From NCBI GenBank assembly GCA_016842085.1, contig JAEVEX010000017.1:1-46080 (forward strand): a stretch of DNA of 46,080 bases, read 5' to 3'. The DNA comes from Candidatus Thermoflexus tengchongensis (GTDB taxonomy: Bacteria > Chloroflexota > Anaerolineae > Thermoflexales > Thermoflexaceae). Positions 1,223 to 5,940 of this stretch are shown here, piece by piece. Under the pieces are notes generated by a model, which made no database searches, had not been told where the DNA came from, and saw only the letters and a list, made by a program, of their open reading frames with translations. How positions within the stretch are numbered: position 1 is the stretch's first letter; each line of letters starts with the position of its first letter. The position numbers and the translations under genes were made by a program.

Positions 1223-1910
1223 CTGCGGTCGATGATCGCCCCGCGAGGCGCCACATCGCGACTCCGAGCATCAGCATCCACAGCGTGACCAGCATCGAGC
1301 CGCCCACGAAGAGTACGCTGGCCAGCGGTGAGCGACCGGTATACGCCTGCAGCAGTCCAGCCGCCAAGGACACGCTGCCACCTAGGACACCGACCCAGCC
1401 CAGCAGCCCCGGATAGCTGCTACTGCGTACGACCGCGAGCCCGTACAGGACGAAAGGCAGCCCCGGCAGCAGCATGGTCTCAAACGTGTAAAGGCCGAAG
1501 TTCGCGCGGTCAAGCGCGTCGGCGATCCGCAAGGCTGTTGCCTGCTCGGCTGGCGCAGCCCCGGTCCACGCGCGGGCAATGCCCTGCATAGCGATGCCAT
1601 CGATGGCGAAGTTGACCAGAAACAGAGAGGCACCCAGCAGCACAGTCAGAAGGCCGAAGCGCGCCAGGTGCGCACCAGGCGTCTCCCGCAGGGCGTCCGT
1701 GAGGCCCGCCAGCGCGCCCACGATGAGTAGAATCCCCAGGCTGAGCCCCAGGTGAAGCGTGACCCAGTAGGGGTGCGCCGCCCCCAGGCGCAAGAACGCC
1801 TCAGGCGTGGGGTCGCTCGGGTGCGGATGTAGCGCATTGAAGACCAGCGTGAGGATGGCACCAGCAATGGCAAGTGCCACGGTAACCCGTCGAGTTTGCC
1901 GCTCAAACAT
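1191..1910 (-). CDS. Multi-pass membrane protein, unknown function
   Basis: A 239-residue protein with about six hydrophobic helices (roughly residues 9-26, 48-70, 84-105, 142-162, 168-190, 197-220). AAAGGAG lies nine bases before the ATG. The helices are punctuated by proline and glycine (LLPGLPFVLYGLAVV). It resembles hypothetical DUF4386-like membrane proteins in layout, but I cannot assign a family from sequence alone. Its 3' end overlaps the truncated cupin frame by about 30 bases, consistent with a deletion junction there. Confidence 0.6.
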   Translation of the reverse strand: MFERQTRRVTVALAIAGAILTLVFNALHPHPSDPTPEAFLRLGAAHPYWVTLHLGLSLGILLIVGALAGLTDALRETPGAHLARFGLLTVLLGASLFLVNFAIDGIAMQGIARAWTGAAPAEQATALRIADALDRANFGLYTFETMLLPGLPFVLYGLAVVRSSSYPGLLGWVGVLGGSVSLAAGLLQAYTGRSPLASVLFVGGSMLVTLWMLMLGVAMWRLAGRSSTAVEPATLVGPG

Positions 1911-2148
1911 AGAAGTCTCTCCTTTGCAATAGGCCTCGACTTTCCTCCCTAGGATGCCCCCAGGGGAGCACGTCAGCCGGTGAGTCGACTACCCCATTTT
2001 CGCTTATCATGATGATCGTTGTCCAGATTAAAAAATGATCAAAACAGGCTCAATTTCTGTTCTTCATCGCGCTTCAGGAGTTCCCAGAGCCCTTGCCTCC
2101 CTCCCTGGCGAAGGGATGGCCCTGGAGGAGCGTGCTGGGCCAGAGCGT

Positions 2149-2841
2149 TTACTTCTGTGCAGGCTGACGGGGCTGGCGCCGGGTGAGTCGTGGGCGCTGG
2201 ATGGGCGGTTCAAGCTCTTCCATCGCCTTCAGCCACTCGACGCGAAGGGAGGCAGGGATGGTGCACCAGAACACCACACTCTGACCGGCGAGGATCTCCA
2301 CCACATGGGGCTCTATCACGCCTTCCTTCCCAACCATCACCCGGGTCACCTGATCCGGACGGTATCGTTCCTTCCCGGGAAGCCGAACGTGAATCTCGCC
2401 CTCACCCCGGCCTCCCACCTGGAGCACACGGTAGATGCCCGGGCGCACCAGGGTGACGGCGAAGAGATCGCCTTCGGGGATGACGTGGCCGCTATTTAGC
2501 CTGACGATCTTCTCCTGATGGGTGAGTTGAATGATCTCCACCCGATATCGCCCGATCCCCCGCGAGACATAAAACCCGATCACACCGCCTGATGCCAGAA
2601 GGTAAGATCCCCCGATCCCCTCCAGCGCGGCGAGGTCCAGGTGGAGCTGTAAAGCCCCCCCCTCCATACCCACACGCACGTGAGCCCGATAGACCATCCG
2701 CTCGTCCCGCCAGATCGTCAGATCATAATCCCCTGCCTCCGGGAATCGATGGAACAGGGTGGTGAGCACGGTGAGCGCCCGGCTATCGAAGGCCCGCTGG
2801 GCGAAAACCGGACGGTTCAATACCACGTTTTTGCGCTTCAT
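2149..2841 (-). CDS. Hypothetical protein, third gene of an unknown three-gene operon
   Basis: A 230-residue soluble protein, starting MKRKNVVLNRPVFAQRAF, without signal peptide or membrane segment and predicted to be mostly beta strand. The segment near residues 170-205 (EGVIEPHVVEILAGQSVVFW) resembles the edge strands of cupredoxin or immunoglobulin-like folds, but copper ligands are not evident. The C-terminal tail is basic and proline-rich (PRLTRRQPRQPAQK). Its ATG follows the upstream stop by two bases with GGGAG in between, so it is almost certainly translated together with the two genes before it. No function can be assigned. Confidence 0.6.
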   Translation of the reverse strand: MKRKNVVLNRPVFAQRAFDSRALTVLTTLFHRFPEAGDYDLTIWRDERMVYRAHVRVGMEGGALQLHLDLAALEGIGGSYLLASGGVIGFYVSRGIGRYRVEIIQLTHQEKIVRLNSGHVIPEGDLFAVTLVRPGIYRVLQVGGRGEGEIHVRLPGKERYRPDQVTRVMVGKEGVIEPHVVEILAGQSVVFWCTIPASLRVEWLKAMEELEPPIQRPRLTRRQPRQPAQK

Positions 2842-2843
2842 GG

Positions 2844-3760
2844 TTAAGCTCCCACGTCGGCTTGCACGACCATCTCCACATCGTTCACGCTGACATTGAG
2901 GTTCCGAACAGGAATACGCACCGGGATCAGCCCGTTTGAGGCCGGCATGATCTCCAGGTGATCATCCACGCGATAGAGCGGGTTGCATCGGCTGAAGAAA
3001 TCCAGGATCACCGTGCCGATGGAATCGAGCAGGCCGAAGCTGACGTTGAAGAGATCGCTGAGCCACTCCTCGATCTCGTCGGGGATATCGAGGATGGTGC
3101 GGATCAGGTCAGCGACGCTCCCGATGATGGCCAGGATGAGATCCCGCACCCAGCCCCCAGGGATCAGCGCCTCCACTGCGCTGGTGAGGGCATCCTCGAT
3201 CAGGTCGCCCACGATATCCGGGAAATCGAACAGATCCACATCGATGGTCTCGGGATCGATATGGATGTGCCACTGGTTGTGGGCTGGCAGCGGCTCAAGC
3301 CGCAACGGCGCGCAGAGATCCGGTGAAGGGAGCGGCAGCGTGGCGTCGAAATAGCGCACACGAGGCGTGCAGTGAAGCTGACCTCCTGGGCGACGAAAGC
3401 GGCCAGATCGGGGGAGATCGAGATGTCGGGATCGCCGCTGAAGATGCATACGCGGGGGAGGCAGATGTCCGGGATCGGCCAGGGCATATCGATACAGCCG
3501 CCGCCCACGCAGAGCTCCGGGATGTTCAGCCCCAGCGTGAACCGCAGCCGGTCCCACCGGAGATCCAGCTCCCGGACCTGGATCGTCCCATCGCTCCGCA
3601 GGTCGATGGAGCCGCCCTCCAGGTGCGCCTTCACATCATACCCGGCGGTAAAGGCCCCGAAGCTCGTGGAATCCGCCTTCTCGAAAATCAGGTTGCGCTG
3701 CAGGAGGTCGAAGGATCGCCGGAAGGCGCCCTCGGAGACCGCAACGGTCATGTGGGCCAT
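2844..3760 (-). pseudogene. Hypothetical beta-rich protein split by a single frameshift
   Basis: Two frames together make one protein of about 305 residues. The first frame runs from MAHMTVAVSEGAFRRSFDLL through the cysteine-containing stretch CVGGGCIDMPWPIPDICLP to FVAQEVSFTA. The second resumes at RVRYFDATLPLPSPDL and continues through an acidic helical region (FDFPDIVGDLIEDALTSAVE) to VNDVEMVVQADVGA. The switch is near 3360-3375; adding one base there restores a continuous reading. The ATG lies just after the upstream stop with GGAGGAG inside the end of that gene. The amphipathic strand pattern is faintly like TULIP lipid-binding proteins, a guess only. The frameshift may be real or an assembly error. 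Confidence 0.55.
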
Positions 3761-3762
3761 GA

Positions 3763-4656
3763 TCAGATCTCCTCCACCACCAGGTTGATGAAGGCCATCA
3801 GCTGATCCGATTCCACCGCCGGGTTATGGGGAACAGCTGCAGGCGCCGGAGCAGGCTGCAGAGTGACCCGCTGGCCGATGGTTATCCCCTGTTTCCTCAA
3901 CAGATCCGTGAGATTGAGGACCATTGATTCAATCGGCTGGCTCAGCCGCGGGAGGAGGCCCAGGCGCAACGTGGTCCGCACGTAGCATTCGACCAGATCC
4001 TCCATCTCCGCCGGCTTCAGATCCACAACCTCCAGCCCATCGAGCCGCAGCTTGAGCCACTGGGAATCCGGAGCGCCGATGGCCCCCCACTCGAAATGAG
4101 CGACGGCGAAAAGCTCCAGGCAGAAGCAGGTCAGCTTCCGCGTCGGGAGGACGACCGGTGTCCGTGGAGGGGCACCGCGCGAGGGGGCAAGGGCACGAGG
4201 GGAATCCGGCTGCCCCGAAGCGGTAGCAAGGACCTCCACCGCGGGGAGCAGATCCCGGATGAGATCCTCCGACGGGCAATCCAGTCCGAAGCATCCCTTC
4301 ATCCGTAACGCAAGACGCTGTTCCGGCAGGGCACCCAGCTCCGGTGGCAATCCGATCGCGTTCCCGGGGTGGAAGTCGATGCGCACATCGGTGAGCTGGA
4401 GGCACCAGTTCAATCCGATAGGGGTCGGAGCGCCGAACACCGGGAGGGGATCCTGCTCTGTAAACAGGGGATTGCCTGCGGCTTTCACCTCCGGGGCGAC
4501 CTCGATGGGAACGCAGAGCAGTTTGGGATGATTCGAGAAGAAGGCGGTGGCGTAGTTGAACAGCGAGGGGCGCTGGCGCATCACGTGGCGGATCACCCGA
4601 TTGATCCCATCTTCATGAAGGCTGCCGTAGAGATCGCTATGGTCGGTGAAAGGCAT
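3763..4656 (-). CDS. Hypothetical protein, first gene of an unknown three-gene operon
   Basis: A 297-residue protein starting MPFTDHSDLYGSLHEDGINR, with GGAGG five bases before the ATG. There is no signal peptide or membrane helix. The N-terminal part is helical (INRVIRHVMRQRPSLFNYAT). It then alternates beta strands (LTDVRIDFHPG; WLKLRLDGLEVVDLKP), with a low-complexity proline/alanine linker near residues 150-170 and another near 265-280 that separates a short helical tail. The stop is followed within two bases by the next ATG, so the three genes from 4656 to 2149 form one translationally coupled unit. I do not recognise the family. Confidence 0.6.
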   Translation of the reverse strand: MPFTDHSDLYGSLHEDGINRVIRHVMRQRPSLFNYATAFFSNHPKLLCVPIEVAPEVKAAGNPLFTEQDPLPVFGAPTPIGLNWCLQLTDVRIDFHPGNAIGLPPELGALPEQRLALRMKGCFGLDCPSEDLIRDLLPAVEVLATASGQPDSPRALAPSRGAPPRTPVVLPTRKLTCFCLELFAVAHFEWGAIGAPDSQWLKLRLDGLEVVDLKPAEMEDLVECYVRTTLRLGLLPRLSQPIESMVLNLTDLLRKQGITIGQRVTLQPAPAPAAVPHNPAVESDQLMAFINLVVEEI

Positions 4657-4753
4657 GAAGGCCTCCAGGTCTGGAAAGAGGTGCCCGGCATGGCGCTGAC
4701 CTCCATACCACCACGCCAGGCGATCATGTCTCGAGGAGATGTCATCCCCCCGC

Positions 4754-5149
4754 TCAGCGGGCGGGCGAAGGCGGGAAGAGCTTCGGGTGGGCCTCCAGCA
4801 TGAGCCAGCGCTCTTCTACTTTCTTCCACACCGTTATCGAGTAACCTTTCAACGCTGAGCCATCCGAAAGGGTGATCTCCACCTCCTCCCCCGAGAGCGC
4901 GATCTCCGGAGAGAGCATGCGGATGTGCTCCGGCTGCATCCGAATACGTGCCCCGCGCATCGTATGCTGAAAGAGCATGTCCATAGCTTCCTGAATGGCC
5001 TCCCGGCCGTGCTGGATATCCCCGAAGGCACCTACCCGGACGGCATCCGGGGCAAAGAAAGCGGCCGCGCGGGAGGCGTCCCCTGCGTTCCAGGCCTGGA
5101 TGAAACTTTCCAATTCGCTTCGGATAGCCCGTTCGTCACTGATAGCCAT
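4754..5149 (-). CDS. NTF2-like (SnoaL/DUF4440-type) small protein
   Basis: A 131-residue protein with the NTF2-like cone fold signature: an N-terminal helix pair (IRSELESFIQAWNAGDASRA), the strand turn FFAPDAVRVGAFGD, GREAIQEAM, and the paired sheet strands ending ITVWKKVEERWLML. Homologues include SgcJ/EcaC-like and stress-related small proteins; substrate cannot be read from sequence. GAGGGGG precedes the ATG at 5149, favouring this start over an upstream in-frame ATG. It lies 97 bases upstream of the unknown three-gene operon on the same strand and may be its first member. Confidence 0.7.
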   Translation of the reverse strand: MAISDERAIRSELESFIQAWNAGDASRAAAFFAPDAVRVGAFGDIQHGREAIQEAMDMLFQHTMRGARIRMQPEHIRMLSPEIALSGEEVEITLSDGSALKGYSITVWKKVEERWLMLEAHPKLFPPSPAR

Positions 5150-5322
5150 GAAATCCCCCTCAAGGATTTTCTCGGGGAAGAGACGATTCCTGTCTTCCCC
5201 TGTCATTCCCATCCTATCCCATCCATGGGCCGCTTTCCAGGTCAAAAGCTGATCAATATTTGCTCAGGGGAAGGAAACAACCTAAGCACGCGAGGATTTT
5301 CACGAGGCGGCGGAGGAAGAGC

Positions 5323-5940
5323 TCAGGGTTCACGCAATCGGAGGCGCTCCAGCGCACGCTGGATCCCCTCCAGGAGGATCCGGTGCTCGGCCTCGTGCAT
5401 ACGCGCCTCGAAGCGCTCCAGCGTGTCATCAGGGAAAAGGGGAACCACGGCCTGAGCCAGCACGGGCCCCGCATCGACCTCCGGAGTGACATAATGCACC
5501 ATGCAGCCGCTACAGGAGATCTCCCCGCGCCGGTAGGCCTCGAAGGCCCGCCGGATGGCATCGCGACCGGGGAACATCCCCGGCAAAGCCGGATGAAGGT
5601 TGATCACTCGGCCGGGGAACCGATCCAGAAAGGCCGAGCTCAGGATGTGCATCCACCCGGCCAGGACGATGAGATCCGGCCGGTACGGGGCGATCTGATC
5701 CGCAAGATCCTGATCATAGGCGATCCGATCCAGCCCCCGCTCCCGATACGGTCGAAGCGGGAAATACAGCGTGGGCACGCCCGCCCGGGCCGCCCGGATC
5801 AGGCCATAGGCGTCCCTCCGATTGGAGACCACCAGCACCACCTCGGCCCACAGACGGCCTTCCCTGCAGGCATCGAGGATCGCCTGCAGGTTGCTTCCGA
5901 ACCCGGAGATCATCACCACCAGCCGACCTCGCGGCTCCAT
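5323..5940 (-). CDS. purN: Phosphoribosylglycinamide formyltransferase
   Basis: Transfers the formyl group of 10-formyl-THF to GAR, giving FGAR (third step of purine synthesis). At 205 residues it is the usual length. The phosphate-binding loop is ISGFGSNLQA (residues 11-20; family usual GxGSNLQA). The catalytic set is present: N114 and H116 in VINLHPALPG, H149, and D156 in EVDAGPVLAQ. It is the last gene of the pur operon, 48 bases after purM. The folate-dependent PurN is used here; no ATP/formate-dependent PurT is seen. Confidence 0.95.
   Translation of the reverse strand: MEPRGRLVVMISGFGSNLQAILDACREGRLWAEVVLVVSNRRDAYGLIRAARAGVPTLYFPLRPYRERGLDRIAYDQDLADQIAPYRPDLIVLAGWMHILSSAFLDRFPGRVINLHPALPGMFPGRDAIRRAFEAYRRGEISCSGCMVHYVTPEVDAGPVLAQAVVPLFPDDTLERFEARMHEAEHRILLEGIQRALERLRLREP

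Follow-up and report, generated by a model that had tools for sequence, protein, structure and literature searches.

What do three closely packed genes of unfamiliar sequence, read one behind the other from the minus strand at positions 2149–4656 of the window (the whole analysed stretch of 46,080 nucleotides from Candidatus Thermoflexus tengchongensis), encode, and do their products act as one unit? Gene A (3763–4656, minus strand) is an open frame for a putatively TULIP-like protein of 297 aa, with conserved cysteines (C-x4-C, C-F-C and others) and homologues in many genomes. Gene B (2844–3760, minus strand), whose product is also predicted to be TULIP-like, carries a one-base deletion in the window copy and is read there in two frames, both of which match a single 305-aa protein of relatives. 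Gene C (2149–2841, minus strand) encodes 230 aa, for which a structural model and a profile predict a cupredoxin-like or Ig-like beta-sandwich and whose tail is basic and proline-rich in composition. Only 2 nt separate the stop of A from the start of B, and again the stop of B from the start of C. Each start is preceded by a ribosome-site motif on the same strand: GGAGG at 4662–4666 for A, a motif at 3769–3775 within the 3' end of A for B, and one at 2849–2853 within the 3' end of B for C. A preliminary description of this DNA had reported three adjoining genes with two-base gaps and good ribosome sites, which proved accurate; it had also taken all three as intact, overlooking the frameshift in B. 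Across the loci that carry this cassette a Shine-Dalgarno-like motif lies upstream of 46 of the 51 starts examined, a count in which the starts of locus L052 are a few bases off and to which two fused copies contribute no B start.

The same description saw no recognisable family in these proteins, and our searches agree with it. Scans of the window proteins A, B and C against Pfam, NCBIfam, PHROGs and PADLOC returned nothing credible, Pfam scans of family members (14 A, 14 B and 18 C) gave no credible match, and neither the NCBIfam scan of A and B members nor a search of solved-structure sequences with A and with B gave any match; a clear profile match to a known family was thus looked for and not encountered. 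DUF1439, DUF4403, DUF2140 and DUF2993 were likewise unmatched when 14 proteins each of A and B were scanned with Pfam. Profile comparisons of A with B, A with C and B with C revealed no sequence kinship. Rfam and tRNA scans of the window found nothing, and a promoter and terminator scan of positions 1900–5400 yielded nothing above chance. The literature searched, whose coverage leaves out most subscription papers and preprints, holds no description of the cassette, and with the same limit no report of TULIP proteins in Chloroflexi lipid transfer or of a TULIP domain together with a cupredoxin.

Homologues are known from genomes of Chloroflexota, Bacteroidota and Comamonadaceae, and within the window's genus the cassette is present in Candidatus Thermoflexus japonica HRbin22 (locus L010, identical with L006). 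The family is sparse: A has matches in 5 of 120 relatives, the window genome among the five, and when 400 genomes of the phylum were searched, B was matched in six, the doubtful fragment in G180 being one of them. In a sample of 396 genomes of the class, B is found in nine; A occurs in those nine and as two short relics elsewhere, C in those nine and as four short weak matches, of which one lies where a contig ends. A scan of 84,980 species genomes with two short motifs, hence a lower bound, detected at least 11 loci, including Bellilinea caldifistulae, a Bacteroidetes MAG and a Hydrogenophaga MAG. In the family to which the Hydrogenophaga MAG belongs, three of 150 genomes matched: the MAG itself, G814 and the doubtful fragment G876. 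Several candidates were not counted, namely the B fragments of G180 (E 3.5e-4, two stops) and G876 (containing a stop), the A relics of G547 and G499 (37–56 residues, with no notable B or C match in 8 kb around), a C end at a contig end in G033, and C fragments in G578, G633 and G658 (E 1e-4 to 3e-4). Such short relics of A, lacking B or C, stand at L074 4092–4256 and L075 4049–4234 in two further Chloroflexota genomes. From such lone relics of A the cassette seems to be frequently lost.

Where enough sequence is available, the three genes keep the same order and orientation in 18 of 18 distinct loci (the window, L006, L007, L008, L009, L011, L013, L014, L015, L016, L017, L018, L028, L029, L041, L042, L043 and L052). 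Duplicates were counted once (L010=L006, L012=L008, L019=L009, L031=L016, L053=L018); L009, whose A is truncated by the contig end, is included, and L020, whose contig carries A and breaks off after codon 86 of B, is not. We had looked for homologues that never occur together, and found A, B and C side by side in every one of these loci. In two lineages, L042 (607 aa) and L009, A and B form a single open frame, the two parts being joined by a proline-rich linker. Over 16 loci the pairwise distances are strongly correlated (r = 0.963 for A-B, 0.942 for A-C, 0.913 for B-C), which speaks for co-inheritance and not for contact, since shared ancestry alone yields such a correlation. The earlier suggestion that the three proteins form a stoichiometric complex gains support from the constant order, the A-B fusion in two lineages, the correlated divergence, and the presence of A and C in all nine B-bearing genomes of the 396-genome sample. 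On balance we think it probable that A, B and C constitute one complex that binds a hydrophobic ligand, a lipid or other; in this reading the order, coupling and fusion of the genes, their selection and their co-inheritance are observed, the folds are predicted, and the complex, its binding of lipid and its location in the cell are inferred.

The surroundings of the cassette are, by contrast with its interior, variable: in a comparison of 893 open frames from 18 loci the neighbours differ, and no partner gene is common across genera. The only flanking genes that different genera share are ABC-transporter ATPases, a substrate-binding-like pair and a protease-like pair, names that are readings of the translations. 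In the window's genus the cassette comes after purN (read from its translation) and a DUF4440 gene; in the window the latter (NTF2-like, 4754–5150) lies immediately upstream of the cassette and is its companion in this genus only. At the purN sites of four members of the genus (G003, G007, G001 and G005), with 2 to 9 kb fetched on the cassette side of purN, the DUF4440 gene and A, B and C are all absent. A functional tie to purN or DUF4440 was dropped, since outside the window's genus neither stands next to the cassette. Downstream of the cassette (170–1910), on the strand that it occupies, the window codes for a DUF4386 protein as well as for a Cupin_2 and a small hydrophobic protein; relatives of the latter two occur in L007 at a different distance from the cassette. 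In Bellilinea (L016, 2181–6305) a 1375-aa protein of the DUF4011 / helicase / REase_MTES_1575 type adjoins the cassette; proteins of this type are often found in defence islands. In G041 (L009, 3179–4132) a lipoprotein-like protein with a Hint domain is encoded convergently to it.

The placement of copies in the tree suggests horizontal transfer across phyla. The Hydrogenophaga copy clusters with two Chloroflexota copies (support 97/96), the G814 copy shares a deep short-type clade with two Chloroflexota copies (100/100), and the Bacteroidota copy falls amid Chloroflexota with modest support (81/85). All three genes of the Bacteroidota copy lack a ribosome-site motif. Genes of Bacteroidota are expected to lack it. 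Contamination as the source of this copy is therefore disfavoured, because its motif-less starts fit a Bacteroidota host. In G814, degenerate fragments of IS91-type transposases (L052, 8058–8250 and 11365–11560), direct repeats about 3.3 kb apart, enclose the cassette and hint at a means of movement.

Are the genes functional in the organism from which the window comes? Within the genus, dN/dS is 0.12–0.18 for A, 0.07–0.13 for B (the two pieces of the window's B being treated separately) and 0.26–0.34 for C. Judged from these ratios, all three are under purifying selection, and because the values are low within the genus we regard the genes as real and as more than chance open frames. The window's B follows frame 0 until about codon 133 and another frame thereafter. 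Comparison of four DNA sequences places the one-base deletion approximately at 3358–3360 (near 3359, minus strand), where the window has GTGTG and L007 has GTGGTG; L006 and L007 are each one base longer. Programmed frameshifting was considered and dropped, as relatives read B in one frame throughout (303–326 aa in intact relatives, 265–266 aa in the short type). The deletion is either a true mutation or a fault of the assembly, the window genome being a draft assembly of 100 contigs, 95% complete. A second lesion is found in the same genus: A of G004, a single-contig genome, has an in-frame TGA (L007, 9437–9439) where relatives have TGG (Trp), and is otherwise an open frame, 90% identical. Thus two of the three copies in the genus are damaged, each once and not in the same gene, and six of the nine genus members, the window genome included in the nine, have no copy. 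Together with the A relics of G547 and G499, these lesions and absences could mean that the genes are decaying and have no present function in this genome. We hold this to be unlikely, though it deserves some weight, given that dN/dS is low for all three genes, including B on either side of its deletion, that each damaged copy has only one lesion, and that the window's own lesion comes from a draft; decay here would in any case be compatible with a single ligand-binding complex encoded by the family at large.

The fold of A and B was approached through the fused protein of L042 (m6a256178f381), which was modelled with AlphaFold from 29 alignment rows. In one MAFFT alignment (A7) the rows that contain B alone have their opening six residues misplaced. 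The model is middling (mean pLDDT 71.4, pTM 0.55), so the relative geometry of A and B in it is unreliable. Each half comprises a helix, antiparallel strands, a long helix or helices, and further strands. Foldseek searches of the PDB with the fused model returned BPI, BPI, LBP and LBP in rows 1–4 (E 1.1e-6 to 8.2e-5), with the BPI rows spanning 601–647 columns, followed in rows 5–7 by YceB, OrfX2 and OrfX2 (E 0.012–0.05). VIA-align gave the best scores for CETP (Z 8.8, 316 residues aligned, rmsd 34.1, model residues 10–607) and BPI (Z 8.8, 212 aligned, rmsd 4.6, residues 239–607, the B part), values close to what models with no clear match can attain. Below these came YceB (Z 6.5, 157 aligned, rmsd 4.5, again the B part), P47 (6.2 and 5.9), Takeout (5.6), the OrfX2 complex (5.5), LBP (5.2), juvenile-hormone-binding protein (5.2), the OrfX1-OrfX3 complex (5.1), SPLUNC1 (4.8) and Mmm1 (4.7), in a range below Z 8 where a single row may mean little. 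All of the best 20 VIA-align rows are chains that we take to belong to the TULIP superfamily, and it is because independent families of one superfamily hold the top rows that we make the assignment. VIA-align coverage is chiefly on the B half. There is accordingly a strong, model-based case that B carries the tubular TULIP fold, built of a curved antiparallel sheet around a long helix, and a weaker one that A alone is TULIP-like, from the full-length alignments with BPI and CETP and the order of elements in the fused model. The earlier guess of such a fold for the first two proteins is thus strongly supported for B, as a prediction, and less directly for A.

Sequence conservation adds further features to both proteins. 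In A, six of the seven listed columns hold a cysteine in at least 13 of 16 sequences. The cysteine cluster CVGGGC...DICLPRVC, attributed before to one of the three proteins, exists and is located in B (3446–3511, minus strand), where the pattern C-x4-C-(8 to 10)-C-(4 to 7)-C recurs in 16 of 16 homologues. B also contains a long hydrophobic helical stretch (2997–3179, minus strand), recognised by hydropathy and by helices in the model, at the place of the long TULIP helix. Its peak 19-residue hydropathy is 1.71–2.63 over 16 of 16 homologues, and in three short-type copies the stretch extends over about 57–76 residues. A signal-like hydrophobic N terminus is absent from A, B and C in all 16 sets of homologues. 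Of the proposal that these are beta-rich, soluble proteins devoid of a signal peptide, the latter part consequently stands, and the former has to be qualified for B. With every homologue above 1.7 and the stretch so long in the short type, the helices of B might enter the membrane as part of a pore, an anchor or a lipid extractor, for which A and C would serve as soluble caps or chaperones. We consider this rather unlikely, because a hydrophobic core helix is expected of a TULIP protein anyway, and the model, at low confidence, puts the helices inside the domain.

The structural model of C is of good quality (mean pLDDT 86.3, pTM 0.81). The family profile matched plastocyanin with the middle of C (E 0.001), and 18 of the 20 matches listed are cupredoxins (plastocyanins, pseudoazurins), only the first being significant. 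Structural comparison was less specific: Foldseek placed a circularly permuted azurin first at a non-significant E of 0.093, in VIA-align fibronectin-type domains lead (Z 5.5 and 5.3) with the permuted azurin third (Z 4.7), and among the weak fold matches fibronectin-type chains outnumber cupredoxin chains. The idea of a cupredoxin-like end in the third protein is hence backed by the plastocyanin and pseudoazurin profile matches and weakly by the fold comparison. Our reading of the alignment is that C may be a permuted sandwich, in which the chain opens with the second half and closes with the first half of a cupredoxin-like fold. No column of C has cysteine in at least 60% of 16 sequences and conserved copper ligands (Cys/His/His) are absent, so a type 1 (blue) copper site is not expected. 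In most copies the C terminus is basic and proline-rich. The short-type C of L043 matches a head-fibre model (E 2.6e-4, below the cut-off of that model), which might mark the cassette as a remnant of a phage or phage-like particle, with tail or fibre proteins. This seems to us highly improbable: PHROGs are unmatched, the viral contigs searched with the B alignment and the plasmid and phage records searched with the L018 B protein contain no relative, and no viral predicted structure matches the fold of the A-B model with E <= 0.001.

How might a complex of these parts work? We propose that A-B-C is a self-contained, horizontally mobile cassette encoding one protein complex. A and B would together make up a tube of two modules, like that of BPI and CETP, here split over two genes and fused in some lineages; attached to it would be C, a beta-sandwich protein of cupredoxin-like kind with a basic tail. 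As a signal peptide is absent, the complex would be assembled in the cytosol, where its hydrophobic grooves would most likely draw a lipid, or a hydrophobic molecule of another kind, out of the membrane, to hold it or pass it on. A far more detailed version, which we regard as improbable and offer as speculation, would be a bacterial lipid-handling device of a new class: a heterotrimer made in the cytosol, its two split TULIP modules capped by a cupredoxin-like protein, borne on a stand-alone interphylum cassette, in which the B helix is a membrane-entering hairpin that takes a lipid directly from the inner leaflet and is gated by the conserved four-cysteine site through metal or disulfide. 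If the ligand-binding complex is real, a TULIP family that is signal-less, split over genes, naturally fused in places, partnered by a cupredoxin-like protein and spread between phyla would widen the range of the superfamily; the cassette would also bear on a bacterial origin of that superfamily, and would offer a small, expressible system from a thermophile for asking what TULIP proteins carry.

Few bacterial TULIP families have been described: P47, OrfX2 and YceB, with three added in 2019, according to PMC6791001. YceB (DUF1439) is a fold match to the A-B model (Z 6.5), and DUF4403, as described in that paper, has two TULIP modules in a pseudo-dimeric protein, akin to A-B. There, YceB and DUF4403 are described as mostly membrane-anchored outside the inner membrane, whereas the cassette proteins lack a signal-like N terminus, and no profile match links either family to A or B. 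C may resemble the cupredoxins (plastocyanin, pseudoazurin, permuted azurin), by its profile matches and, weakly, by its fold matches, but differs from them in having neither a conserved cysteine nor a secretion signal. The clostridial P47, OrfX2 and OrfX3 are also bacterial TULIP-like proteins of a small operon and, like YceB, fold matches to the model. P47-type proteins are described as having two TULIP-like domains (PMC6791001), and OrfX2 and P47 as TULIP-like, with orfX-p47 operons in varied bacteria (PMC7020563 and PMC6791001). The orfX-p47 clusters are placed beside toxin genes; the flanks of 18 loci of the present cassette, compared as translated open frames and with names read from the translations, share generic transporter parts and one protease-like pair. 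By this analogy the TULIP modules could be protein-protein scaffolds that package or deliver an unlinked client and carry no lipid. We find this doubtful, with about the same reserve as for membrane insertion. The Pfam P47 model (PF06597, as named in PMC7020563) matched none of the A or B proteins scanned at E up to 5–10. The neighbours vary among loci, and no common partner gene was found. The partner protein is also a different one, and PMC7020563 does not contain the word cupredoxin. Our preferred reading, a complex of A, B and C around a hydrophobic ligand, finds its nearest likeness in the animal proteins BPI, LBP and CETP, the best fold matches, which resemble A-B in having two TULIP-like modules in sequence. 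A-B differs from them in the absence of a Pfam sequence match, in the lack of a signal and in being mostly carried on two genes, and to their common plan the A-B-C cassette adds the cysteine clusters and a third partner, C.
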